Source: Chloroflexota bacterium
GTDB lineage: Bacteria > Chloroflexota > UBA6077 > FW602-bin22 > JAMCVK01
DNA: 64,000 bases
Direction of reading: 5' to 3'
NCBI GenBank assembly: GCA_023475225.1
Contig: JAMCVK010000050.1
Location: 1 to 64,000, forward strand
Both the position numbers and the translations under genes were made by a program. The notes under the pieces are model-generated. The model was not told the origin of the DNA. It saw only the letters and a list, made by a program, of their open reading frames with translations, and did no database searches. Every line of letters begins with the position of its first letter. The first letter of the stretch is position 1. Positions 28,650 through 62,504 of this stretch are shown here, piece after piece.

Positions 28650-29510
28650 TTATTTTCGGAGGAGGCGATTTACAGCCTCGCGCAAGGCTTCCTCTACCAG
28701 GGCTGACGTCACTCTCCTCCTGTATTCGGCTGAAGCCCGCACATCGCTGATCGGCGAAGCCTCTGTCGCGGCCATCTGGGCTATCTTTTCTATGGACTCC
28801 TTCTCCAGTGGTTTACCTATGGCCCAGTTCTCCGTCCGGCACGCCCGGAGAGGTACCGGAGCTACAGAACCAAGGGCGATGCGTATCTCTGCAATGATGT
28901 GGCTTTTGATCTTTACGGCTACGGCGGCGCTGGCGATGGCGATGGCCAGGGCACTGCGCTGTCCCAGTTTGACGAAACGGCTGCCCCATCCATCGCCCAG
29001 GAGAGGAAGGATGACGGCGGTAAGGAGCTCCACGGGTCGCCGGTCGGTCCGTTTTGGACCTCTTAGGAATTCTCTTAACGCTATTTCCCGTGAACCGCTC
29101 AGGCTGCATAAACGCACATTGGCGTTATGTACCAGGAGGGCAGGAAGGGTATCCCCAGCGGGCGAGGCTGTGACGATATTGCCTCCCAGGGTGGCTCTAT
29201 TCCTGATCAATGGTGAGCCGACGGTGGCGGCTGCCTCGGCCAAAAGCGGCGCCGAGCGACGTATCGCCTCTGTGTAGCAGAGGTCGGTCATCGTCAGGGT
29301 CGCACTGAGGGTCAAAGACGAATCCCGGCGTTCGATTCCTCGTAAGGCCCCTATCCGGGAGATATCAAGGATCACCTTCGGGCGGATCAACTCCCGCCGC
29401 AAGGAAACGACCAGATCGGTGCCTCCGCTGACGATGGCGCAGTCCTCCCCATATTCGGCCAACGTCTTAAGGGCCTGTTCCGAAGAGGTAGCCTGAATGA
29501 ATTCCATCAT
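28650..29510 (-). CDS. molybdenum hydroxylase FAD-binding subunit
   Basis: The 286-residue medium subunit has the FAD motifs VSGGTDLVVSLR and RNRATLGGNIVTASPAGD and the C-terminal CO-dehydrogenase-flavoprotein domain (about 175-280). It takes electrons from the iron-sulfur subunit and hands them to NAD or another acceptor. The start overlaps the adenine deaminase stop by four bases. Confidence 0.92.
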   Translation of the reverse strand: MMEFIQATSSEQALKTLAEYGEDCAIVSGGTDLVVSLRRELIRPKVILDISRIGALRGIERRDSSLTLSATLTMTDLCYTEAIRRSAPLLAEAAATVGSPLIRNRATLGGNIVTASPAGDTLPALLVHNANVRLCSLSGSREIALREFLRGPKRTDRRPVELLTAVILPLLGDGWGSRFVKLGQRSALAIAIASAAVAVKIKSHIIAEIRIALGSVAPVPLRACRTENWAIGKPLEKESIEKIAQMAATEASPISDVRASAEYRRRVTSALVEEALREAVNRLLRK

Positions 29511-31252
29511 ACCCTGATGTTGATAATGCGGTGTTGGACGACATCAACAAGTCCCCTATCCGTGATGCCTAGCTCGGGCACGGTGGGCAGAGAGATGAAG
29601 GAGAGCGTCATAAAGGGGGCCGGCAATTGACAACCGAGCTCGGCCGCCGCCTGGTTCAAGCGCTGGGATTGCGCTATCACTGTTTCTGCCTCTTGATCGC
29701 TCATCAAACCGGCCAGCGGTAAAGGTAAAGAGGCCAGGACCTTTCCTTTCTTCACCACGACGAAACCACCCTGCATTTCCACCAGGGCGTTGATGGCTGC
29801 AGCCAGGTCCTCGTCGTCGCAACCGACGGCGATCAAATTATGGTGGTCGTGGGCTACCGAAGAAGCCAACACCCCCTTCCTTAAACCGAAACCTCTGACA
29901 AAGGCGATGGCCACGTTGCCATTCTTTCCATAACGCTCAACGACAACAAGCTTCAGCACATCCTTCTCAGGCGAGGGCCGTACGGCCCCACCCCGTACGG
30001 GTAAGGTGGCTCTCTCTTCCCTGTTGATGATCTGGTCGGGGTAGAGAGCGATTACCCGCACGTCGGCCTCTGTGCCATCGCTGGGGAGGATAAAGCTCTG
30101 GGGAGTTATCGGGCGCAGCAGTTTGACTGTGTTCCGTAGCCAGGACGGATAAGCAGAGGGCGCTAATGGCCTCACCAGACGGCCGTCTTTGGCTACCACC
30201 CGTCCATCAACCAGCACATAGCCTGGTTTCAGGTCCCTCAGATTCTCTACCAGAACGATATCGGCCAGTCTCCCTGGGGTGATGGAGCCGATCAGGTCAG
30301 CGAGACGGAAGTGCTCGGCAATATTGAGGGTAGCCATCTGGATGGCCTTGGTTGGTGGAACCCCTTCCTTGATGGCCTTCTTGACGTTATAGCTGATGTG
30401 TCCCTCGCTGCTTATATCGCTAGCGTGTTTGTCATCGGTACAGAAGATCAGGTGGCGGTAATCGAAATGGCCCTCTTGCACCCCTCTAAGGAGGGCGCTC
30501 AAGTTTCGTTCCGTGCTCCCTTCGCGAACCATTATCCGCAGTCCCAGGCGCAGCCGTTCGATCAGCGACTCAGCGGTGACGCACTCATGGTCGTCGGCGA
30601 TGCCGGCGGCCGTATAGGCGTTGAGTCGTGATCCCTTCAGTCCGATGGCGTGCCCGTTGACGATCTTCCTGAGGGAGCGAGCTGCCTCTATCTTTCCGAG
30701 GTACTCCTCCTGAGGAGGAATGATCTTCGTGGGATCCATCTCCCCCAGGCTGACTGCTTCTTTCCAGCATAGCATCTCCTGCACCTCAGACAGCCCCAGG
30801 CTTGCTCCTGTAGTTTCCAGGGCAGGAGCGGTCGGCACCCGAGAAGGAACCTCAAGAAACAGGCGTAGAGGGACTCCTTGGACACCGGCCAGGAGGGCAC
30901 GCACACCCTCAAGTCCAGCCACGTTAGCTATCTCCATAGGATCGATGAAGATGGCCGTTGTCCCCTGGGGCACAATCAGGCTGGCTAGCGCCTCAAGGGT
31001 TAACATCGTCGCCTCGATGTGCACGTGAGCGTCCATGAGGCCAGGAATGGCGTATAAGCCGGCGCAATCAAGTGTTTCCATTGCTGGCAACGGCTCATCC
31101 GAGCAGATGCTGGCGATATACCTCCCCTTTATGGCGATATTCGTCTGATATATCTCCTCGGAGTAAACGTTGACTAAGCGGCAGTTTTTCAAAAGCAGAT
31201 CACAGGGCACCTCACCAAGGGCTGCCCTGACCACGTCGGCTATCATTGGCAT
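29507..31252 (-). CDS. ade: adenine deaminase
   Basis: Adenine deaminase turns adenine into hypoxanthine, which the neighbouring xanthine-dehydrogenase-type enzyme can oxidise. The 581-residue protein has the amidohydrolase metal motif HVH (H76, H78) in DAHVHIEATM, GHAIGLKG, the DDHE motif, CTDDKHASD, and the specific C-terminal domain with VAHDHHNLIAVG. One deviation: the motif usually read DPHEIANV has Met at 106 (DPMEIANV). Its placement between the FAD and Mo subunits, overlapping both (4 and 10 bases), ties it to purine catabolism. Confidence 0.9.
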   Translation of the reverse strand: MPMIADVVRAALGEVPCDLLLKNCRLVNVYSEEIYQTNIAIKGRYIASICSDEPLPAMETLDCAGLYAIPGLMDAHVHIEATMLTLEALASLIVPQGTTAIFIDPMEIANVAGLEGVRALLAGVQGVPLRLFLEVPSRVPTAPALETTGASLGLSEVQEMLCWKEAVSLGEMDPTKIIPPQEEYLGKIEAARSLRKIVNGHAIGLKGSRLNAYTAAGIADDHECVTAESLIERLRLGLRIMVREGSTERNLSALLRGVQEGHFDYRHLIFCTDDKHASDISSEGHISYNVKKAIKEGVPPTKAIQMATLNIAEHFRLADLIGSITPGRLADIVLVENLRDLKPGYVLVDGRVVAKDGRLVRPLAPSAYPSWLRNTVKLLRPITPQSFILPSDGTEADVRVIALYPDQIINREERATLPVRGGAVRPSPEKDVLKLVVVERYGKNGNVAIAFVRGFGLRKGVLASSVAHDHHNLIAVGCDDEDLAAAINALVEMQGGFVVVKKGKVLASLPLPLAGLMSDQEAETVIAQSQRLNQAAAELGCQLPAPFMTLSFISLPTVPELGITDRGLVDVVQHRIINIRV

Positions 31253-33531
31253 AAGTTCTCCTCTTGAAGGGCAATGAAAAGCGCCTCAGCCGTCATGGGC
31301 AGGGACTGCAGGCGTACCCCGGTGGCATCCTTTATGGCGTTGGCGATGGCTGCAGCGGTAGCCACTGTTCCTATTTCGCCCAAGCCTTTGGCGCCGAAGG
31401 GTCCAGTAGGCTCCTCTCCCTCCACAAAGATGGCCTGCACCTCCGGGGCATCGATGGAGGTCGGGATGATGTATTCTGAGAGATTAATGACCCAGCCCTC
31501 CCCCTTGCGCCGAACCTCCTCATACAGGGCATAGCCGACGCCCATCAACACGCCACCCTCTATTTGTCCAGCAGCAGTGGCAGGGTTGATGATGCGGCCC
31601 GCCTCATGGATAGCGCTGATTTCTCTTACGATCACCTTCCCCGTCCGCGGGGCGACCTCGACAACGGCCACCTGGGTGCCATAACTATAAACGACGTGGG
31701 GAAGGCCGATTCCGAATGTGTCCTTTGTCTCAGCTGGATAGGGAAAGGTAAAATGCCCTATCCCCGAGACCGAGCGCCCCTCACGTTGAGCTGCGTGCAC
31801 GATTTCCTCACTGGAGAGGCGTTGCTCAGGGGCAGTCGTCTTCCAGACGACGCCTGCTGTGTAGGTCAGCCCTTCTTGCTGTACCCTGAGTATCCTGGAG
31901 GCTTCAGCCAGCAAGTTCGCTTTGGCCTCACGTGCGGCCAGGAGAACGGCTGAGCCCTGGACGTAGGTCAATCGTGAGGCTGAGGCCGTGCCAGCCTTTG
32001 GCGTCTGCGCCGTATCAGCCACGATCACGTTTATTTCGTCGTAGTCCAGGCCCAGCTCTTCGGCCGCTATCTGGATCATCGCCGTAACCGAGCCTTGCCC
32101 CATCTCTGAGCCTCCCAAGCATAACTGTACCCCGCCCTTCGCCGACCAGTCGATCCTGGCTGTGGCCTCATCCGGGATACCGAAGCCAAAGCCCGTCGTC
32201 ATTACGGAGCAGGCCAGACCGAACCCGTAGCGTTTACCATCGACTCTGCTCTTCTCCTTATAGCGAGCTGCCAATCGCCTTCGCTCACGCTCAGCCATCT
32301 CCAGGCAGGCAGCGAGTCCGACCTCATGTTTCAACCGAATACCGGTAGAAGTGGTATCTCCCTTCCGCCAGATGTTCCTTTGGCGAATCTCCAGAGGATC
32401 GATACTCAACCTCTCGGCCAGCATATCAATGATGCTCTCACAAGCGAAATTGACCTGCGGGACACCAAAGCCGCGCATGGCCCCGGCGATGAGGCAGTTC
32501 GTGTAAACGCAATAGGTATCCACGGCGATGTGGGGGATATGATAGGGCCCACTAGCCATCTCCGCCATAAGGGCGACGATGCCTGGACCGAAGGAGGCGT
32601 AAGCGCCGGTATTGGCGAAGATGGTCGCTTGCAGAGCTGTCAGACGCCCTTGAGTTGTGGCCCCAACTTTGTAATAGAGGGTGGCAGCGTGTCGCTTGGG
32701 ATGTGAGAGAACAGATTCCTCTCTAGTGTTGACGAAACGAACCGGCCTGCGGGTCTGGTAAGCTGCCAGAGCGGCCATTATCTGTAAGGCGATATCGTCC
32801 TTACCTCCGAAGGAGCCGCCGATAGCCGGGTTGATCACCCGAATTTGTTCCAGGGGCAGGTTCAGTGCTTGAGCGATCTGCTCTTGGTCCTTGAAGGGGT
32901 TCTGGGAGGGGGCCCAAACAGTGATCTGATCATTATTACAGATAGCCACAGCCACCTCTGGCTCCAGGTAGGCGTGGTCAACTGTTTGCGTTCGAAAGGT
33001 GGCTTCGAGGACGAGGTCGGCTGTGGCGAACCCTGCGTTGATGTCCCCGACATGGATCTGGCGGTGGGAGAGGAGATTACCGTCTGAGTGTACTAGAGGG
33101 GCGTCCTCCCGCAGGGCTATCTCGGGGTCGAAGACGGCTGGTTGCATCTGGTATGAGACCTTGATCCGTTTGAGTGCCTGGCGGGCGATCTCCTCAGTCC
33201 TGGCCACGATGACAGCTATCGCTTCACCCTGGAATCTAACCTTCTCGAAGGCTAGAATCGGCTGGTCTGGAACCATCACTCCAAAAGCGTTCCGCCCTAG
33301 TATATCTGAGGCAGTGAGGACAGCCACAACTCCTGGACAGGCCCTCGCCCCAGAGAGATCTATGGAAAGGAGATGGGCGTGATCGTGAGGCGAGCGTAAA
33401 ACCGCCCCGTATAACATGCCCTCAAACCAGAGATCGCCAGCGTATTTTGCTTCTCCCTGAACCTTTGGTCCGGCATCCCATCGTGCTATTGGTTTAGCGA
33501 TCGCCCGATAAGGGCTGGTGGTCGTAGTCAT
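31243..33531 (-). CDS. molybdenum hydroxylase large (Mo-cofactor) subunit, xanthine dehydrogenase-like
   Basis: The 762-residue catalytic subunit carries the molybdopterin cytosine dinucleotide motifs: GGSFGGKDDI, AMRGFGVPQ, GGSEMGQG and the C-terminal FGAKGLGEIG containing the catalytic Glu. It belongs to the XDH/aldehyde oxidase family. The operon partners (adenine deaminase, nucleoside-type transporter) argue for a purine substrate such as hypoxanthine or xanthine. The active site lacks the CO-dehydrogenase loop with the Cys ligand as far as I can see. It is 35 bases downstream of the permease genes. Confidence 0.9.
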   Translation of the reverse strand: MTTTTSPYRAIAKPIARWDAGPKVQGEAKYAGDLWFEGMLYGAVLRSPHDHAHLLSIDLSGARACPGVVAVLTASDILGRNAFGVMVPDQPILAFEKVRFQGEAIAVIVARTEEIARQALKRIKVSYQMQPAVFDPEIALREDAPLVHSDGNLLSHRQIHVGDINAGFATADLVLEATFRTQTVDHAYLEPEVAVAICNNDQITVWAPSQNPFKDQEQIAQALNLPLEQIRVINPAIGGSFGGKDDIALQIMAALAAYQTRRPVRFVNTREESVLSHPKRHAATLYYKVGATTQGRLTALQATIFANTGAYASFGPGIVALMAEMASGPYHIPHIAVDTYCVYTNCLIAGAMRGFGVPQVNFACESIIDMLAERLSIDPLEIRQRNIWRKGDTTSTGIRLKHEVGLAACLEMAERERRRLAARYKEKSRVDGKRYGFGLACSVMTTGFGFGIPDEATARIDWSAKGGVQLCLGGSEMGQGSVTAMIQIAAEELGLDYDEINVIVADTAQTPKAGTASASRLTYVQGSAVLLAAREAKANLLAEASRILRVQQEGLTYTAGVVWKTTAPEQRLSSEEIVHAAQREGRSVSGIGHFTFPYPAETKDTFGIGLPHVVYSYGTQVAVVEVAPRTGKVIVREISAIHEAGRIINPATAAGQIEGGVLMGVGYALYEEVRRKGEGWVINLSEYIIPTSIDAPEVQAIFVEGEEPTGPFGAKGLGEIGTVATAAAIANAIKDATGVRLQSLPMTAEALFIALQEENLCQ

Positions 33532-47593: not shown

Positions 47594-48340
47594 ATGAATA
47601 ATATTAAGTTAGCCGTGATTCTTATCTTTCTCTTGGGGTTGCTTACCGCCTGTTTCCAAACCTCCACTGTTACTCCAACTCCCACCATGCCGGTCCCCTC
47701 TCCTACCAAAAATGAGGCCAAAAGGATGGAAGCGATCAAACTGCTGGAAACAGCTCTGAGTAAGATGGATAAAGCCGCCAGCTATCGCTTCACCATCTCC
47801 GCCACCCACCACTATACTTACGAAGGACGTCCTAGCGAATGGAAATATGAGGGGCAGGGAGCCATCATCTGGCCGAATAGGTTCCAATGGACACTATCTG
47901 GCCAGGCTGATGTGCTCAAGACTGTCACCAGCGTCGATGGTAAGACCTTCTGCGCCGACTCCCGTGGCGAGCGTCGGGACTGCACTTTGGCTTGGGGTGG
48001 GATCGGACCGGGCAGTTCCCCTTATACCCTTATTGTCTACCTGCGAAATTTCGGTACTGTCTCTGATCTCGGCGTACAGGTGTTGGGGGGTACAGAGCAT
48101 CAGCACCTCGCCTTCTCTCCTGTCTTGGCCAAGGTAGCCGCCGTCGATGCTACACATGCCAGGGACATGGCCAAAGTGATTGCCGTCGATGGTGAAGTTT
48201 GGATCGACAAGATAACAGAGCTTCCACGTCAAGAAAGAGTGATCGTCAAGTATAAATCACCTACTGGTCAGGAAGAGACAGCCGATACCACCCTCACCTT
48301 TCTTGATTACGGCAAGCCCATCGAGATCAAACTACCGTAG
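47594..48340 (+). CDS. lipoprotein, LppX/LprG-like fold suspected
   Basis: A 248-residue lipoprotein: signal with lipobox LLTAC (C20), a Thr/Pro tether, then one domain with ALSKMDKAASYRFTISATHHY, repeated beta strands (GQGAIIWPNRFQWTLSGQ, DGKTFCADSRGERRDC) and a late DGEVWIDKITELPRQERV segment. This strand pattern recalls the LppX/LprG/LolA-like lipid-carrying proteins, but identity is not certain. It is followed 12 bases later by the Asd-like gene. Confidence 0.7.
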   Translation: MNNIKLAVILIFLLGLLTACFQTSTVTPTPTMPVPSPTKNEAKRMEAIKLLETALSKMDKAASYRFTISATHHYTYEGRPSEWKYEGQGAIIWPNRFQWTLSGQADVLKTVTSVDGKTFCADSRGERRDCTLAWGGIGPGSSPYTLIVYLRNFGTVSDLGVQVLGGTEHQHLAFSPVLAKVAAVDATHARDMAKVIAVDGEVWIDKITELPRQERVIVKYKSPTGQEETADTTLTFLDYGKPIEIKLP

Positions 48341-48352
48341 GAGAGCGACGGT

Positions 48353-49429
48353 TTGCGGAATTATAATGTGGCCATAGTTGGCGCCACTAGACTTGCTGGG
48401 CAGGAGTTGCTTAAGGTCCTCAGGCAACGTCACTTCCCCTTTCGAGAGCTTCGTCTATTCTCCACTAATCAAGTGACGGAGAGGCGAATCGTGCCCCGGC
48501 CAGGGGAGCCGGAAATAGAGGAATTAGATTCTCATTCCTTCCGAGGCATCGACATCACCTTCTTCTGTACGGAAGCAGACAGCAGTGCCGCTCTAGCCCC
48601 TATTGCTGTCCGCTCTGGGGCGACAGTCATCGATAGCAGCTATGCCTTCCGGATGACGTCGACCGTGCCTTTAGTGGTGCCTGAGGTCAACCTGGAGGAC
48701 CTGCAAGGACATGCCGGACTCATCGCCAATCCCAGCCCTTTGACCGTACAATTGGTTATGGCCTTATATCCTCTCCATAAAGTTAACCCACTCAAACGGG
48801 TAATCGTCGCTGCCTGCGAATCTGTCTCCGCTGCTGGTGCCGTGGCTGTCGAAGAGCTCAGTACCCAAACTAATCTCATCCTGGAAGGGCGACCGGTCAT
48901 TCCCCATGTCTTTCCCCATCAGATCGCCTTCAACCTCTTACCAGAGGTGGACGTCTTCTTGGATAATGGTTATTCACGTGAAGAATGGAGTGTTATCCAG
49001 GAGATGAAGCGAATCATGCATGCTCCGGATTTGGCCGTCTCGGCCACCGCTGTACGGGTACCGGTCTACGTTGGACACTCCGCTGTTCTGCACATCGAGC
49101 TGAGCCACGAACTGGAACCTGACGAGGTTACGGCTATCCTGACAGAAGCCCCCGGTATCCGCATCATGGATGATCCGGCCGTCAGCCTCTACCCGCAACC
49201 CTGGTCGGTGGCTGGACAGGATGAGGTTTGCGCCGGGCGCTTACGGCAGGATGTTTCCCATCCTCATGGGATCATCCTCTGGGTTGTAGCTGATAACCTG
49301 CGGAGAGGGATCGGACTGAACGCTGTCCAAATCGCTGAGGCGCTGATTGAGCGTGGCTGGCTTCGGCGTCAGCCTCCACCGTACAGTACCGATCAAACGT
49401 TAGGGCAACTTGCTCACGAATCCAGCTAG
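48353..49429 (+). CDS. aspartate-semialdehyde dehydrogenase homologue lacking the catalytic cysteine
   Basis: The 358-residue protein (TTG start) has the ASADH architecture: dinucleotide-binding VAIVGATRLAGQELL, FFCTEADSSAALAP, VIDSSYAFRM, VVPEVN, then ACESVSAAGAVAVEEL, HQIAFNLLPEVDVFLDNGYSREEW and VRVPVYVGHSAVLHIEL. At the place of the invariant NPNCST motif it reads NPSPLT; Cys is replaced by Pro129 (codon 48737-48739). It therefore cannot form the thioacyl intermediate. This recalls USG-1-type ASADH relatives. Its 3' end overlaps the convergent deacetylase gene by 30 bases. A true Asd must be elsewhere, since hom and thrC are present in the window. Confidence 0.85.
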   Translation: MRNYNVAIVGATRLAGQELLKVLRQRHFPFRELRLFSTNQVTERRIVPRPGEPEIEELDSHSFRGIDITFFCTEADSSAALAPIAVRSGATVIDSSYAFRMTSTVPLVVPEVNLEDLQGHAGLIANPSPLTVQLVMALYPLHKVNPLKRVIVAACESVSAAGAVAVEELSTQTNLILEGRPVIPHVFPHQIAFNLLPEVDVFLDNGYSREEWSVIQEMKRIMHAPDLAVSATAVRVPVYVGHSAVLHIELSHELEPDEVTAILTEAPGIRIMDDPAVSLYPQPWSVAGQDEVCAGRLRQDVSHPHGIILWVVADNLRRGIGLNAVQIAEALIERGWLRRQPPPYSTDQTLGQLAHESS

Positions 49430-50437
49430 AGAATCCTTCCCACTAACCCGTACCCGCCGCAAGGCATAAACCTGAGGGAAGGAATGATTGAAACCAAAGA
49501 GGGTTGAGACAGCCCCTCGATAACCGTTGGCTTGCAAGATGGTTATCGCCCGTTGGTTGAAGCGGCCGGAGGGATAAGCCAGGAGCCTGACTGGCTTTCC
49601 CACCTCTCGTTCGATAGCTGCCTTCGATTCCTTGACCTCGCGCTGGATAACGGTGTCTGAGGCGACGGCCAGATCGGGATGGGTGACGCTGTGCGACTCT
49701 ATGGACATACCTCCTTGACTCATCTCTCTTATCTCTGTCCAAGACATATACCCCTTATGCCCCACCAGACCGCTGATGATGAAGAAGGTTCCCACGAAAC
49801 CATATTTGCGTAAAAGGGGATAGGCGTGGGTGTAATTGTCTTTATAGCCGTCATCGAAAGTCAAGATGATCGGTTTTGGGGGGAGCGGGATAGCCAACTC
49901 AAGATGGGCGATTAATTGATCCAGATAGATGGAATGATAGCCATGTTCAGCCAGATAGCGTAGCTGGGCTTCGAAAGTGGCTGGGTGGACGGAGAGCTCA
50001 AAGCGATAAGCCTCGGCCGGATCGGCTTCTGCAATATGATGATACATCAAGATGGGTACGGCTACACCCGTTTTAGCTGGCTGGTGAGGGGCCGCCTCCG
50101 GATTGATCCTCAGCGGAGAAGCAGCTGGAGGGGTAGCCAGCGCTGTTGGCGTAGCGGTGGGGGTGGCCATCACTGCCGATGTAGCGGTGGGAATTGGAGT
50201 AATGGCTATCGTAGCCGTGGGGCTAAGCACTGCGGGAGGACTAACGGTGGGAGTGATCATCGCTGTAGGGGGAGGCGTTAGGGGTGGTGAGGAGATCACT
50301 GTCGGATACACCCTTTCCGTCTTAAGTGTAGCTCTGCCCCACTGGTCAGTGGTCTTCTGCGGGCCCGGTCCCAGACAGGCGCTGCTACTTAACAGAAGTA
50401 AGATGAGAAGATAAACGAGGCGCTGTTTTGATCTCAT
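49400..50437 (-). CDS. polysaccharide deacetylase (NodB domain) lipoprotein
   Basis: A 345-residue lipoprotein with lipobox SSAC (C21), a Thr/Pro/Ala-rich low-complexity linker (about 45-110) and a CE4/NodB domain (about 125-345). Motifs: VPILMYHHI, LTFDDGYKDNYTHAYPLLRKYG (catalytic Asp and first metal Asp), SHSVTHPDLA (metal His pair) and LLAYPSGRFNQRAI. It would remove acetyl groups from surface polysaccharide or peptidoglycan. It overlaps yqeC by four bases. Confidence 0.9.
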   Translation of the reverse strand: MRSKQRLVYLLILLLLSSSACLGPGPQKTTDQWGRATLKTERVYPTVISSPPLTPPPTAMITPTVSPPAVLSPTATIAITPIPTATSAVMATPTATPTALATPPAASPLRINPEAAPHQPAKTGVAVPILMYHHIAEADPAEAYRFELSVHPATFEAQLRYLAEHGYHSIYLDQLIAHLELAIPLPPKPIILTFDDGYKDNYTHAYPLLRKYGFVGTFFIISGLVGHKGYMSWTEIREMSQGGMSIESHSVTHPDLAVASDTVIQREVKESKAAIEREVGKPVRLLAYPSGRFNQRAITILQANGYRGAVSTLFGFNHSFPQVYALRRVRVSGKDSLAGFVSKLP

Positions 50438-51213
50438 TTGTAGCTGGACAACACTACCTCGATGGGGGCTAGTCCCCTGGCTGAGCCAAAGACAACCCGC
50501 TCAGCCAGGCCGCTCTCCAGGACGAGGGCAGCCACTTGCCTGGCGATGGTACAGCTACCCTCGTCCTCGACCATGTTGATGAACGGGACGTATCTCGACC
50601 CGGGTGGTAATCCCTTTGCCCCTCCCTCCATATGTATAATAAGCTTAGCCACAGCCTCCGCGCTGAGGATGCATCCCGAAGAAAGACCGGTCACGGCCAT
50701 CACCTGCTCCAGACGATGAGCCACTTGCGGGGTAAGGGGTTTCCCTATCGCTCCTACCGCCACAACGAAGACGACCAGACCGCTGCAAGGGGGAATCACC
50801 GGTTCATAAGCAGCTGGGGCCTTAATCAAGTGCCCCGCTGCCCCATCGGCCTCGACCAGCACGTTCGATACCTCAGGCAAAGCGGCGATCTCGGCGATCA
50901 AGGAGGGATCCAGTGACTGCAACTTGCGCCGTTGTCCCTCTGAGCGGTAGCCAGTGGCTACCGTGAGTGAGTGATAGCGTCTCAGACCTTCCCGAATCAG
51001 GCGAAGCATCTCCTCAGGCCGCTCAGCCAGAAGCAGATAATCTGACTCCTCAAGGGTCGGCTCATAGATAGCCGTTGTCGTAGTGGTGATTACCCTCTTG
51101 CCTTGTTCAACTAACTCCCTGGCTAGCCGAAACATCACCGTCGTCTTGCCACCGGCGCCGGTGAAGGAGATCACTTCCCCATCGCTTACGTTAAGAGCAC
51201 TGACTAGCGACAT
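50434..51213 (-). CDS. yqeC: YqeC family protein, selenium-dependent hydroxylase accessory
   Basis: The 259-residue protein begins with a P-loop ISFTGAGGKTTVMFRLA and contains VITTTTTAIY, NVLVEADGAAGHLIKAPAAYEPVIP and AVGAIGKPL, all characteristic of YqeC, a family that by genome context accompanies selenium-dependent molybdenum hydroxylases. It is 15 bases downstream of the SsnA-like gene, which belongs to the same trait. Their role in building the labile Se-Mo centre is inferred from phylogenetic profiles, not chemistry. Confidence 0.85.
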   Translation of the reverse strand: MSLVSALNVSDGEVISFTGAGGKTTVMFRLARELVEQGKRVITTTTTAIYEPTLEESDYLLLAERPEEMLRLIREGLRRYHSLTVATGYRSEGQRRKLQSLDPSLIAEIAALPEVSNVLVEADGAAGHLIKAPAAYEPVIPPCSGLVVFVVAVGAIGKPLTPQVAHRLEQVMAVTGLSSGCILSAEAVAKLIIHMEGGAKGLPPGSRYVPFINMVEDEGSCTIARQVAALVLESGLAERVVFGSARGLAPIEVVLSSYK

Positions 51214-51228
51214 CGGCAGATGGGGTAG

Positions 51229-52632
51229 CTAGAGTCTGGCCCAGACTTGGGGGGCCAGCTGGCGGGCTCGCGCCGCTATCCGCTCCTCATCGAGGGTGAG
51301 CAACTGGCGATCTTTCAGCAAGATTTTGCCGTTGGCGATGGTGGTAACCACATTGCTCCCGTCTATAGCGAAGATCAGGTGCCCACCAGCGTTGCCCTTA
51401 TGTAGTGGAGTAGGGGGGTCATAGTCGAGTAAGACTATATCGGCGTAGGCTCCTGGACTCAGCTCACTGAAAGGATACTTGGCTGTCGAAACAGCTGGGG
51501 AGAGGGACTTGGGAGGCCAATGAGGTAGCTCAAAGTGACTGGCTGCGGTGGCCGCGTTGTGGTGAAAAGCCATCGCTAAAATCTGATCGACCCCCAGAAC
51601 CCGCGGGTCACGTTTGGCCAGCTTAGGTAAAAGGTAACCCACCTTCATCTCTTGGAACATATTCATGCTGAAACCATCATTGCCCAGGCCAACCTCAATC
51701 CCCCGCCCAAGCATCTCTAATACGGGAGAAACACCGACAGCGTTATTCATATTGGAGCGTGGATTATGAACAACACGTGTACCCGTCTCTTTCAATATTT
51801 GCATTTCGGACTCGTTGATATGGACGCAATGGGCAGCGATGGTCTTGGCACCCAGGATGCCCGCCTGGGCCAGACGTTCCACCACCCTTCGCCCACTTAT
51901 CTTCAGGGCTTGCTCTACGTCGGCCATATCCTCTGCTACATGGATGTGAAAGCCAGTCCCAAGGGGCGCGGCCGTCTCCACGCATTTGGCCAGCGTCTGG
52001 TCTGAAAGGGTCAGAGAGGCATGCAAGCCAAAGGTAGCTCCGAGGAGGCTGGTTCTGTCCGTTTCCTTCCCCGCTCGTCTCGCCTGCTGCACTTTCTTGA
52101 TGAACCGCTCATTTTCCCTTATGCCAGCGATAGCTCTTTCCTTTCCATCGCGATCAGTCACTTCATAACAGAGGCTGCAACGCACCCCCGCCTCTTGGGC
52201 AGCCTCGGCGATTACATCAAGGCTGCCATCGATAGCGTTGGGGCTGGCGTGGTGGTCGATGATAGTTGTACAGCCGTTCTTTATCGCATCCAACAAGAAG
52301 ATATAGGCACTGTAGCGGATATCCTCGGGGCGGAGAGCTTTGTCTAAACGCCACCAAATCCGTTCTAAGATCTGGGGGAAGTTGGCTGGTGCCTCGCCGG
52401 AAAAAGGCATCCCTCGGGCGAAGGCCCCGTAAAAATGGGTATGTGCACAGAGCAGGCCGGGCATCACTACCTTGCCCCCTGCATCGAGTACCTCCTCCTC
52501 TGGATGTGCGGCGCGGAGCTCAGCGGTCGTTCCAACAGCAGCAATAACGTTGTCCTCGATCAGGATAGCGCCATCGGTGATGACGTCGTTGTTCTGGTTA
52601 AAGGTAAGTAAGGCGCCATTGGTGATAAGCAT
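51229..52632 (-). CDS. ssnA: SsnA-like amidohydrolase (selenium-metabolism associated)
   Basis: The 467-residue amidohydrolase has metal-site motifs CAHTHFYGAFARGM, FHIHVAED, AAHCVHI and LGNDG, as in the ATZ/TRZ deaminase group, and the LITNGALLTFNQNNDVITDGAILIED start typical of SsnA. SsnA co-occurs with YqeC, as here. It may deaminate or hydrolyse a purine-like substrate. A longer frame opens at 52689, but the promoter at 52661-52689 and SD GGAGGAG before ATG 52632 decide the start. Confidence 0.82.
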   Translation of the reverse strand: MLITNGALLTFNQNNDVITDGAILIEDNVIAAVGTTAELRAAHPEEEVLDAGGKVVMPGLLCAHTHFYGAFARGMPFSGEAPANFPQILERIWWRLDKALRPEDIRYSAYIFLLDAIKNGCTTIIDHHASPNAIDGSLDVIAEAAQEAGVRCSLCYEVTDRDGKERAIAGIRENERFIKKVQQARRAGKETDRTSLLGATFGLHASLTLSDQTLAKCVETAAPLGTGFHIHVAEDMADVEQALKISGRRVVERLAQAGILGAKTIAAHCVHINESEMQILKETGTRVVHNPRSNMNNAVGVSPVLEMLGRGIEVGLGNDGFSMNMFQEMKVGYLLPKLAKRDPRVLGVDQILAMAFHHNAATAASHFELPHWPPKSLSPAVSTAKYPFSELSPGAYADIVLLDYDPPTPLHKGNAGGHLIFAIDGSNVVTTIANGKILLKDRQLLTLDEERIAARARQLAPQVWARL

Positions 52633-52660
52633 CGTCTCCTCCACCCTCATTTTTGGTGCC

Positions 52661-52689
52661 ATTGTATCCGCCAGCCACCTGTTCGTCAA
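52661..52689 (-). promoter_or_regulatory. promoter of ssnA-yqeC-deacetylase
   Basis: Minus-strand TTGACG (52689-52684) and TACAAT (52666-52661) with 17-base spacing, about 22 bases upstream of the SsnA-like start. Confidence 0.6.
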
Positions 52690-57836: not shown

Positions 57837-59114
57837 TCACAGGTCCGATCTTTGGAGCAAGGCGATCACTTCGGCCAATTTCGGCTCGATAACGATCGGA
57901 CGGTTGGCGTAGGTGGAGGTGGTCCCCTGAATCTTACTCAAATGGTAATTGACGGTGGTATCGGGGTCCTTCAGAAGGTGCCCGGTCAGGATAGCCACCA
58001 CCGCCTCGCCCCTCTTGATGATACCTTTACTCAGGAGCTTCTTCGCCCCCGCAACTGCCGCGGCTGAGGCCGGTTCACAGCCGATGCCCGCCCCGTCGAC
58101 CTGGGCTTTGGCGTCCAGTATTTCGGCATCGTCGACCTCCTCCACAACCCCATTGGTCCATTCGATGGCCCGACGGGCACGCGGGTAGTTCACCGGCCGA
58201 CCGATGCGAATGGCACTGGCCACAGTATCGGCCTTCACCGGGTTGAAGGACCTGAAACCGTTCTTGTAGGCTGCGTAGAAAGGGTTGGCTCCTGTCGCCT
58301 GAATTACCGCCAGGCGGGGGATGCGATTTATGAGCCCTAACTCTTTTAACTCGTGGAGCGCCTTGCCGAAGGCGCTGGCGTTGCCCAGGTTGCCTCCGGG
58401 TACTACTATCCAGTCCGGTGCTGACCACCGCAGCTGTTGGAGGGTTTCCAAGATGATACTTTTCTGTCCCTCTAAACGGAAGGGGTTAATCGAGTTCAGG
58501 AGGTAAATGCCCAGACTCTTGGCTGCCTCCCAGACAAGGGAGAGAACGGCGTCAAAATCCCCTTTCACCTGAATGGTGCGCGCCTGGTAGGCGATAGCCT
58601 GGCTCAATTTGCCGTAGGCAATCTCGCCCTGGGGGATGAAGACGAAGGCGGTGAGGCCAGCACTGGCGGCGTAGGCAGCCATCGAGGCGGCGGTATTGCC
58701 CGTGGAGGCGCAGGCCACCGAAGAGGCGCCCACTATCTTTGCATGTGTCGTCCCCACAGCCATTCCGCGGTCTTTAAAAGAGCCGGTTGGATTTTGTCCC
58801 TCGTGTTTCAGTCTCAAGGATTCGAGCCCCACCCATTTTGATAGCCGCTCGCTCTGGTATAGCCCAGTATGCCCCTCCCCACAAGAAACCAGTTGTCCCT
58901 GATCAATGGGAAAAATGAGCTCCGCATAGCGCCACACGCCGCTGCTGTAAGGAGGTTCCTGACAGCCTTGCCGTGTTTCAAAGAGCTGTTTTAGGGGACG
59001 ATCCTTAAGGGAGGAGAGATCGTGGACAACGTCAAGTAGCCCCCCACAATCACAGCGATGGCGGGCTGGTATGATCGGGTAGGTGGATCGACAATCTATA
59101 CATCTCAGATTCAT
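57837..59114 (-). CDS. thrC: threonine synthase
   Basis: ThrC converts O-phosphohomoserine to threonine with PLP. The 425-residue protein has an N-terminal zinc ribbon (C5, C8, C21, C23), EGHTGLYQS, the PLP Lys114 in HEGQNPTGSFKDRGM, ASTGNTAASMAAYAA and the glycine loop VVPGGNLGNASAFGKAL. It overlaps hom by four bases (ATGA), forming a threonine operon. The homoserine kinase needed between them is not in the window. Confidence 0.93.
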   Translation of the reverse strand: MNLRCIDCRSTYPIIPARHRCDCGGLLDVVHDLSSLKDRPLKQLFETRQGCQEPPYSSGVWRYAELIFPIDQGQLVSCGEGHTGLYQSERLSKWVGLESLRLKHEGQNPTGSFKDRGMAVGTTHAKIVGASSVACASTGNTAASMAAYAASAGLTAFVFIPQGEIAYGKLSQAIAYQARTIQVKGDFDAVLSLVWEAAKSLGIYLLNSINPFRLEGQKSIILETLQQLRWSAPDWIVVPGGNLGNASAFGKALHELKELGLINRIPRLAVIQATGANPFYAAYKNGFRSFNPVKADTVASAIRIGRPVNYPRARRAIEWTNGVVEEVDDAEILDAKAQVDGAGIGCEPASAAAVAGAKKLLSKGIIKRGEAVVAILTGHLLKDPDTTVNYHLSKIQGTTSTYANRPIVIEPKLAEVIALLQRSDL

Positions 59115-60409
59115 TTCTGAACCATAAAGGTGCTGGAGACCTTCCTCACTACCGCCAGCCTCTCGATCTTGACTAAGGCGTTTTTCATCTTGCTGACCTT
59201 GGCTGGATGAGTCATAAAGACCAGCTCAGCAGAGCGAGCCGTCTCATCCGTCTCCTTCTGGATCACGGAGGCGATGCTAACCTCTTCATCGCCCAACACC
59301 TTGGAGATTTGGGCCAACACGCCGGGGCGGTCGTCTACCTGCATGCGGATGTAATGGCGGGATTCAAGGTCACCGAAGTGGCGCACAGAGCGTTGACGCC
59401 GGTGCAGGCCCATCTCGTCGATCACGCCCCGCTGTAGGTTATGAGCGATGGTGCATAGATCTGCCACTACGGCGGAGGCGGTCGGTGCTGCTCCAGCCCC
59501 TGGGCCATAGAGCATAAACTGGTCTACTTGATCGCCGTTGAAGAGCACGGCATTGAAGACATCATTCACCTTGGCCAGATGGTGATGGTCTGGAATGAAG
59601 GTCGGATGTACCCAGGCTTCGATCTCATCGTTAATAACCCTGGCCACAGCCAGGAGCTTGATGACGTAACCCATCTCTTTAGCATAGCGAAAGTCCTTCG
59701 CCTCCAGGTCAGCGATACCATAATGGTAGACATCGTCTGGGCGAACCTCCGTCTTGAAGGACAGGGTGCTCAGAATGGCCAGCTTGTAAGCAGCATCGAT
59801 CCCCTCGATATCGTTGCATGGATCGGCTTCAGCATAACCTAGCGACTGCGCCTGCCGCAGCGCCGTGGCGAAGTCGATGTTTCCCTCGCTCATCTTGGTC
59901 AGGATGTAGTTTGTGGTGGCGTTCAGAATAGCCTCGATACCTAAGATCTCATTGGCGATCAATCCACGCCGGATCACATCTATCACCGGTATACCCCCGG
60001 CAACGCTCGGTTCGTAGAATAGATTAACCCTTCGTTCCTCGGCCAAGCGCAGCAGCTCGAATCCAAACTTAGCGATCACTTCCTTGTTGGCCGTGACGAC
60101 ATGCTTTCCCCGCTGCAGTGCCTCCTTGATGTAGGTATAAGCCGGTTCCTCACCACCGATGACCTCCACAACGACCGCGATGCTTGGATCATGAAGGATG
60201 GCCGCGGCATCAGTGGTTAACAGACTGCGTTTGACCGGGAGCGAGCGCTCCTTGTGGGGATCACGCACTAATACCTTGCTGATCTCAAGATCGCAGCCGA
60301 TGGTTTTGGCTATTTGAGCTCTCTTCTTGTGGAGCAGCTCTAGCGTACCACAACCGACCGTCCCGGCACCCATCAGGCCTATTTTTATGGTTGTTTTCTC
60401 TTTGTTCAT
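59111..60409 (-). CDS. hom: homoserine dehydrogenase
   Basis: The 432-residue enzyme reduces aspartate semialdehyde to homoserine. It has the NAD(P) motif GLMGAGTVGCGTLELL, VVEVIGG, VTANKEVIAKFG, the catalytic segment YEPSVAGGIPVIDVIRRGL, EADPCNDIEGIDAAYKLAIL, and a C-terminal ACT domain (about 352-425, VDDRPGVLAQISKVLGDEEVSI) for feedback control by threonine. First gene of hom-thrC. Confidence 0.95.
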   Translation of the reverse strand: MNKEKTTIKIGLMGAGTVGCGTLELLHKKRAQIAKTIGCDLEISKVLVRDPHKERSLPVKRSLLTTDAAAILHDPSIAVVVEVIGGEEPAYTYIKEALQRGKHVVTANKEVIAKFGFELLRLAEERRVNLFYEPSVAGGIPVIDVIRRGLIANEILGIEAILNATTNYILTKMSEGNIDFATALRQAQSLGYAEADPCNDIEGIDAAYKLAILSTLSFKTEVRPDDVYHYGIADLEAKDFRYAKEMGYVIKLLAVARVINDEIEAWVHPTFIPDHHHLAKVNDVFNAVLFNGDQVDQFMLYGPGAGAAPTASAVVADLCTIAHNLQRGVIDEMGLHRRQRSVRHFGDLESRHYIRMQVDDRPGVLAQISKVLGDEEVSIASVIQKETDETARSAELVFMTHPAKVSKMKNALVKIERLAVVRKVSSTFMVQK

Positions 60410-60571: not shown

Positions 60572-60840
60572 TGAAAGGCGAATGGCTGTGATGGGGAGTA
60601 GTAGGAAGGCTACCAACCTCCAGAGAGCTGAGCAGTGGTGGGAACTCAGTGGTATGGATCTTCCGAACTCGCCTCGGAGCAACTGGAGCGAAGGGGGTAA
60701 ACCCGTTTAGCTCCGGTCGGAGTGGCACCCGTTAACGTGCTTCAAGAGGATGTCGCACCGCAAAAGAGGTGGCGACATCAAGGGGGGTGGTACCGCGGGA
60801 TTCAGTTCTCGTCCCTTAGTGGACGAGAAATTTTTTTATT
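60572..60840 (+). promoter_or_regulatory. T-box leader of ilvD, Leu (CUC) specifier
   Basis: All parts are visible: GATGGGGAGTAGTA at the start of stem I (about 60590), CCAGAGAGC, the specifier context CCGAACTCGCCTCGGAGC with CTC at 60668-60670 (Leu), CCGTTAACG, the T-box core GGGTGGTACCGCG (60785-60797) and a terminator. A Leu specifier on a valine/isoleucine/leucine biosynthesis operon means expression rises when tRNA-Leu is uncharged. Confidence 0.93.
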
Positions 60841-60842
60841 TT
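60806..60842 (+). terminator. T-box-controlled terminator before ilvD
   Basis: TTCTCGTCC (60806-60814) pairs perfectly with GGACGAGAA (60821-60829), six-base loop, followed by A and a run of seven T, then ATTTT. A strong intrinsic terminator eight bases after the T-box core. Confidence 0.9.
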
Positions 60843-60854
60843 GAGGAGCACGAT

Positions 60855-62504
60855 ATGAGAAGTGACATCATCAAGCGTGGTATTGAGCGAGCGCCACACC
60901 GCTCGCTGTTGAGGGCCCTTGGTTGTACCGATGTGGAGCTAGAGCGCCCCTTCGTCGGCATAATTAACTCGGCCAGCGAGATCATCCCCGGCCATTTGCA
61001 TCTGAGGCAGATAGCCGAGGCAGTGAAAGCCGGGGTGCGTATGGCCGGCGGTACCCCTTTTGAGTGCAATACTATCGGTGTATGTGACGGCATCGCTATG
61101 AACCACAGTGGAATGAAGTATTCCCTGGCCAGCCGGGAGCTGATCGCTGATTCGGTAGAGGTGGTCGTACAGGCTCACGCCTTTGATGCCTTAGTCTTCA
61201 TCCCCAATTGTGACAAGATCATCCCGGGCATGCTAATGGCCGCTGTTCGCTTAAATATTCCGGCCATCTTCACCAGCGGCGGACCGATGCTGGCCGGCAA
61301 ACACAAGGGTGATATAGATCTCAATACGGTTTTTATGGCTGTAGGGCAGGTGGCCAAGGGGGAGATGTCCCTTGCCGAACTGGAGGCGTTGGAAAGGGCC
61401 GCCTGTCCCGGTTGTGGCTCCTGCGCTGGGATGTTCACAGCCAACACCATGAACTGTTTGACGGAGGCTCTGGGGATGGGACTGCCCGGTAATGGGACGA
61501 TTCCGGCTGTGATGGCCGGTCGTATCCATTTAGCGAAGATGGCCGGCATGCAGGTGATGGAGCTGTTGCGGAAGGATATCAAGCCGCGTGACATCATCAC
61601 TGATAAGTCCATTCGTAATGCCTTCATCATCGACATGGCCTTGGGGGGATCAACCAATTCCATTCTTCACCTCTTGGCCATCGCCCACGAGGCCGGACGG
61701 GACTTCCCCCTGGCCTCGCTCAACGATATATCAGCCCGGACACCTCATCTGGTCAAGGTCAGTCCATCAGGCCATCACCACGTAGAAGACCTGGACCGAG
61801 CCGGGGGCATAGCGGCCTTGATGGGCGAGCTGAAGGAGCTGCTGCACGGTGATGCCGTGACGGTGACAGGCAAGACTGTCGTCGAAAATGTTGGAGAAGC
61901 ACGGGTGCTTGATCACGAGGTCATTCGGCCCTCAGGTACCCCCTACTCCTCAACTGGTGGGCTGGCCATCCTCTTTGGTAACCTCGCCCCTGCCGGCGCG
62001 GTGGTGAAGCGGGCGGCTGTGGATCCGCAGATGCTGGTTCATCGCGGTCCAGCCAGGGTCTTCGAGAGCGAGGAAGCGGCTACGCAGGCTATTATGAATG
62101 GAAAGATTCGCCCCGGTGAGGTAGTAGTGATTCGGTACGAGGGCCCGAAAGGTGGACCGGGCATGCGGGAAATGCTTACACCGACAGCTATTCTTTCAGG
62201 GATGGGACTGGATGACACGGTAGCCTTGCTCACTGACGGCCGGTTCAGTGGGGCAACGCGTGGGGCGGCCATCGGCCATATTTCACCGGAGGCTGCTGAG
62301 CGGGGGCCCATAGCTGCCCTTCGAGACGGTGATATTATTGCTATTGATATTCCCAGGTACCAGCTGAACGTTGAGCTGAGTGAGGACGAGCTGGAGGCGA
62401 GACGGCGCGATCTGCCGCCTTTCGAACCGCGCCTCAAAGAGGGCTATCTGCGCCGCTATGCGGAGTGGGTGACCTCAGCATGTACGGGGGCCATTTTCCG
62501 CTAG
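60855..62504 (+). CDS. ilvD: dihydroxy-acid dehydratase
   Basis: IlvD dehydrates 2,3-dihydroxy acids in valine, isoleucine and leucine synthesis using an Fe-S cluster. The 549-residue protein has [22 protein letters not shown], cluster ligands in FIPNCDKI and [31 protein letters not shown] and [25 protein letters not shown] 60855 has GAGGAG upstream; earlier in-frame starts would lie inside the T-box. ilvB follows after 154 bases. Confidence 0.95.

Follow-up and report, generated by a model that had tools for sequence, protein, structure and literature searches.

An ASADH homologue without the catalytic cysteine

The window, i.e. the whole 64,000-nucleotide stretch of Chloroflexota DNA analysed here, carries at positions 48353–49429 (forward strand) a gene for a 358-amino-acid homologue of aspartate-semialdehyde dehydrogenase (ASADH) without the catalytic Cys, a putative pseudoenzyme as judged from profiles, alignment and predicted fold, and referred to below as asd*. 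Its frame is uninterrupted from a TTG start to the stop over 358 codons. Both Pfam Semialdhyde_dh domains were found, and the protein matched two curated profiles over its full length, TIGR01296 (343.7 bits, cut-off 324.2), which places it in asd_B, and PRK14874 (358.4 bits, cut-off 223). Since these scores exceed the curated ASADH cut-offs, automatic pipelines would label asd* an active ASADH.

The alignment contradicts such a label. Codon 129 (CCT, 48737–48739; this and all codons below on the forward strand) encodes Pro at the position of the catalytic Cys, turning the motif NPNCST into NPSPLT, as the initial annotation of this locus had noticed, but the damage is wider than it described. 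The active-site Gln is replaced by Glu (codon 156, 48818–48820) and the phosphate-orienting Lys by Ser (codon 213, 48989–48991), with further changes of Asn128 to Ser and Gly160 to Ala. The NADP(H) site is likewise degraded: the nucleotide-binding Gly motif GATGxVG reads GATRLAG (codons 10–16, 48380–48400), the second Gly of GxTGxVG being Arg13, the 2′-phosphate loop ASxRSAG reads STNQVTE, and SGxG and GAALN have become SAAG and GIGLN. The cofactor motifs, initially taken as kept, are thus lost, and with the nucleotide-binding motifs degraded the proposal of an NADP-binding protein falls as well. For the substrate motifs, also thought to be kept, this holds in part: the phosphate-binding Arg100 (48650–48652), the substrate-carboxylate-binding Arg235 (49055–49057), Glu210 (substrate amino group) and the acid-base His242 are present; the Gln and Lys at codons 156 and 213 are not. 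Residue roles were taken from mutants of the Haemophilus influenzae enzyme (PMC3276109), in which C136S retains < 0.01% activity, K246R retains 3.3% and replacement of the Gln leads to loss of activity (PMC3276109). Judged against these mutants, asd* is almost certainly dead as an ASADH, in agreement with the initial view that it is not a normal one.

Genomic setting

Directly upstream of asd*, across a gap of 12 bases, lies a lipoprotein gene (47594–48340, forward strand); in G004, which belongs to the same order, a homologue of this gene stands in front of the intact asd. The ribosome-binding site of asd* (GGAGAG) overlaps the lipoprotein stop. The lipoprotein gave no Pfam match and a poor fold model (pLDDT 46), and among the fetched loci its pairing with asd occurred only in G004 and in the genome of the window (G000). 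The other immediate neighbours are yqeC/ssnA. On the reverse strand, YqeC (selenium cofactor biosynthesis) adjoins SsnA at 50434–52689 and xanthine-dehydrogenase-like genes lie further upstream at 28650–33531, which suggests a region of selenium-dependent purine catabolism.

While the lipoprotein and selenium genes adjoin asd* as first reported, amino acid genes are not absent from the surroundings. Threonine synthase (thrC, 57837–59114, reverse strand) and homoserine dehydrogenase (hom, 59111–60409, reverse strand), the latter a consumer of aspartate semialdehyde and both of the same branch of aspartate metabolism, are encoded 8–11 kb downstream and are given here as context only. The aspartate-semialdehyde-consuming Thr/Ile branch thus lies 8–11 kb from asd*; beyond hom and thrC, the ORFs at 60750–62504 (forward strand), continuing in locus L122, read as a likely ilvD-ilvB-ilvN-ilvC-leuA cluster.

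A second, intact asd and the history of the two copies

The genome of the window (2.74 Mb, 97% complete, 50 contigs) contains a second asd, at C24, which is intact (NPNCST), as the initial annotation had proposed to look for. This copy heads a complete diaminopimelate (DAP)/lysine operon, asd-lysC-dapA-dapB-lysA-dapF-dapL (downstream names read from ORFs), and groups in the tree with the asd genes of two genomes from the same order, G010 and G002 (support 98/97); the G010 gene also heads a dapA-dapB cluster. asd* falls in a different group, together with Dehalococcoidales-type Asd, to which two genomes of its order, G004 and G007, also contribute (99/98). An origin of asd* as a recent duplicate of the C24 copy was rejected (p 0.005).

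The asd behind the lipoprotein homologue (42%) of G004 is intact, and no other was found in that genome. The tree mildly disfavoured asd* as the direct sister of this syntenic copy (p 0.034), at odds with gene order; we tentatively put the conflict down to the long branch of asd* and give this result of the tree little weight. Given the shared lipoprotein, the intact asd of G004 and the intact copy at C24, the simplest history is that two types of asd met in the G000 lineage, where catalysis would have stayed with the copy in the lysine operon and been lost from the one behind the lipoprotein gene. Orthologues with an intact Cys had initially been expected to point to a sequencing error; G004 does, in a sense, provide one, but the loss lies in the window lineage and no such error follows.

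Pattern of substitutions and predicted fold

We calibrated the changes in asd* against 199 intact asd_B proteins, picked for the presence of all seven catalytic residues, using the 44 near-invariant columns (≥ 97% conserved). asd* departs at 12 of these columns, compared with a median of 0 and a maximum of 8 among the intact proteins (n = 199), a difference that excludes chance. All 12 departures fall at catalytic or cofactor columns and none at structural ones (hypergeometric 3e-5 for a 22/22 functional/structural split, based on known roles but drawn up with the table already in view).

At 0.56–0.66, the branch of asd* has roughly double the length of the branch of the intact G004 copy (0.24–0.29), an excess of some 100 changes as judged from branch lengths. 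Neutral simulation yielded 4.5 stop codons per 100 amino-acid changes, with 0.9% of runs stop-free, so that about 4.5 nonsense hits would be expected from the ~100 excess replacements under neutrality; asd* has 0 stops in 358 codons. With neither stops, frameshifts nor truncation in this frame, asd* does not class as a pseudogene, and its codon-position composition is normal and its ribosome-binding site intact.

AlphaFold predicted an intact ASADH fold (pLDDT 90, pTM 0.88), with low confidence only at residues 40–45, the former 2′-phosphate loop, and in the last 18 residues; the best PDB matches of the model are ASADHs (TM 0.86–0.91). As for a pseudoenzyme, the catalytic residues are lost and the fold is retained, the latter as predicted only. 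Compared with the bacterial asd_B enzymes (Streptococcus pneumoniae 2GZ1, Thermus 2YV3 and Porphyromonas gingivalis 8JUO), asd* is alike in full-length homology and predicted fold and shares both Pfam domains, the phosphate and carboxylate arginines and the substrate Glu and His, but differs in lacking the Cys, Gln, Lys and NADP(H) motifs and in lying outside an amino-acid operon.

No close relatives of asd* were found in the genome collections searched. We infer selection on asd* from the site pattern and from its relatives rather than from a dN/dS of its own, and on these grounds it is likely that the protein is kept for a function. A partial asd homologue at a contig start in G461 (L271 / L279), 52% identical to asd* and with Gln changed to Cys and Lys to Leu, is possibly a near altered relative, the active-site half lying off the contig.

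Altered asd_B genes across Chloroflexota

Among 400 Chloroflexota genomes searched, asd_B was found in 191 and the archaeal-type asd_EA in 171. Only six genomes carry both (G038, G042, G079, G241, G287 and G392), and in 6/6 the asd_B is altered while the asd_EA keeps its Cys. The Cys is replaced by Ser in G038 and G079. It is retained in G241 (Gln→Glu, Lys→Arg), in G042 (His→Tyr, Lys→Arg) and in the mildly changed G392 (Lys→Arg plus neighbouring changes). In addition, G199 has an asd_B with Cys→Ala beside an intact asd of another type.

Across the comparison set of 130 genomes read, asd_B was altered in 8/8 with a second asd (including G000 and G199) versus 4/122 in which none was found (Fisher 3e-10, or 3e-9 under a strict definition; both values are descriptive, since the genomes are related and not independent). 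The four exceptions are G030 (73% complete), G255, G377 and G382; in the list of altered copies compared with asd*, every genome checked except G030 and G255 has a second asd. Other sites are lost with the Cys kept in the asd_B of G042/G030, G241, G255 and G392. The sole asd found in G382 (L167) and G377 (L173) has the motif TPNCEV, with Lys213 replaced by Thr/Ala. With the Lys alone changed, these two enzymes are probably active, and the phosphate-orienting Lys seems dispensable in asd of this type.

The altered copies resemble asd* in keeping a full-length fold while losing catalytic residues; their gene neighbours differ from those of asd*, and no neighbour shared by altered copies was found across families. 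All altered copies but one keep Arg235, and Arg100 is present in every one that spans its position. A tree built without the trait columns gave 6 state changes, requiring several separate losses, and a single origin of all altered copies as one clade was rejected (AU p 0.0005). When the classes of G038 and G042 were searched for further altered copies, all the genomes recovered were ones known before. The altered asd of G079 (L119), G199 (L257) and G241 (L258) still stand within pnp-dapB-asd-dapA operons, in genomes that carry another intact asd.

The proline form in family f80

Whether Pro at this position is conserved in orthologues had been raised in the initial annotation, and Pro proved to be conserved in another Chloroflexota family. 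When 158 genomes from the class that includes G287 were searched with a profile, the Pro form was present in 5/5 matching genomes of family f80 (G287, G442, G443, G444 and G445), spanning three genera. The motif reads SPSPA/SV and always occurs with Gln→Glu, Lys→Arg, His→Met and Glu→Ser; the second Gly is an acidic residue wherever that part is present, and Arg100 and Arg235 are always kept. Family f80 and asd* thus have Pro129, Glu156 and a changed second Gly in common, but f80 has lost His242 and Glu210, which asd* keeps.

In three congeneric f80 genomes dN/dS was 0.053, 0.064 and 0.072, against 0.02–0.095 for intact controls. The f80 homologue is therefore under strong purifying selection, and a function is well supported for this family. 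As an ASADH homologue without a nucleophile that is nevertheless under such constraint, it is the best evidence that proteins of this kind have a job. One origin for asd* and the five f80 genomes was neither supported nor rejected (AU p 0.36), and the Pro in the two may be convergent.

Explanations for the altered gene

An artefact of sequencing or binning, for which the assembly in 50 contigs might speak, has hardly any chance of being the cause. The change from Cys to Pro needs two base changes, the flanking residues differ as well and further catalytic residues are missing, which is not the mark of a one-base error; the many coordinated changes sit within an open frame, five further genomes, one of them assembled in 5 contigs, have Pro at this position, and the upstream gene order is shared with G004. 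Membership of USG-1, the family of Cys-less ASADH paralogues of Proteobacteria (Escherichia coli usg; Pseudomonas aeruginosa 2HJS) with which alignment had initially been suggested, is very improbable. USG-1 is likewise a paralogue beside an intact asd, and E. coli Usg, although its annotation still reads semialdehyde dehydrogenase, has neither the Cys (VPDSLT) nor the Gln. However, asd* scored below both family cut-offs (PRK08040, 192.9 versus 273; PRK05671, 236.9 versus 284), stands at 50–58% to intact Chloroflexota asd_B versus 32% to Usg, and lies in a tree group far outside which Usg falls. Usg keeps the Gly motif and has lost Arg100 and Arg235, the reverse of asd*, and neither pdxB nor truA accompanies asd* as in the E. 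coli order pdxB-usg-truA. Scores, tree and residues together reject asd* as a USG-1 protein; its loss of Cys is a separate one, in a different operon.

The most serious competitor is decay, in which selection on the displaced gene relaxed once the asd of the lysine operon had made it redundant; its active site was lost, and the gene, having no function, would be heading for loss itself. The finding of altered asd_B genes where another asd exists, the doubled branch length of asd* and the want of close relatives that would show constraint all agree with it. We nevertheless think it unlikely: a decaying gene fits poorly with an open frame of 358 codons free of stops and frameshifts, with an intact ribosome-binding site and normal codon-position composition, or with structural invariants that are all unchanged, and in f80 a homologue of the Pro type shows strong purifying selection. 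An enzyme with a changed reaction, whose substrate would be acidic or phosphorylated and whose chemistry would need neither Cys nor NADP(H), might account for the retention of Arg100, Arg235, Glu210 and His242 and for the recurrence of Pro and Glu at the Cys and Gln positions in f80. This appears quite improbable, as neither a conserved new nucleophile nor a new cofactor motif was identified and the changes of His to Met and Glu to Ser in f80 make a common new mechanism unlikely.

We consider that asd* is probably an ASADH pseudoenzyme which, once another ASADH had taken over, was retained in a role other than catalysis. With two ASADHs in G000, the lysine-operon copy would carry the essential reaction, and the lipoprotein-linked copy would then have been free to lose catalysis with its fold still under selection. 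That the present job is non-catalytic is the weakest step and one that we infer. With the arginines kept and the NADP(H) motifs lost, the protein would be expected to bind a ligand that is acidic or phosphorylated and to carry out no redox chemistry; Arg100 and Arg235 may bind aspartyl phosphate, aspartate semialdehyde or phosphate. The retained dimerisation domain may also let asd* act on another protein; it might, for instance, pair with the intact ASADH and regulate it. A dead paralogue that keeps its fold beside a live one is also seen for S-adenosylmethionine decarboxylase, whose inactive homologue activates the active enzyme by heterodimerisation (PMC10211241); the heterodimer belongs to that system, and for asd* would be conjecture. 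A heterodimer role is hard to extend to genomes whose active enzyme is asd_EA: the partner would be an asd_B in G000 but the distant asd_EA elsewhere, which weakly favours a sensor as the more general guess.

As a wider proposal, which we put forward tentatively and as a possibility rather than an expectation, Chloroflexota might time and again convert an ASADH that has become redundant into a conserved protein without catalytic activity. Such a protein would keep the arginines that bind anions but neither the nucleophile nor the NADP(H) site, and would serve the aspartate pathway as a sensor or an allosteric partner, the Cys-to-Pro forms being one class. The data suggest that retired ASADHs have repeatedly been kept for another job in related bacteria. 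They offer a natural series for the general question of what becomes of an essential enzyme's gene once a second gene takes over: in Chloroflexota the ousted asd copy, rather than being deleted, often seems to persist as a protein that folds but does not catalyse. We found no paper describing ASADH pseudoenzymes in Chloroflexota, which is weak evidence of novelty, as most subscription papers lay outside the search. There is also a trap for annotation, since Cys-less proteins are named ASADH above curated cut-offs, and a pathway reconstruction counting only such a gene could be wrong. The NCBIfam equivalogs PRK14874, TIGR01296 and PRK08040 give this name to asd*, E. coli Usg and the f80 proteins, the last by PRK14874.
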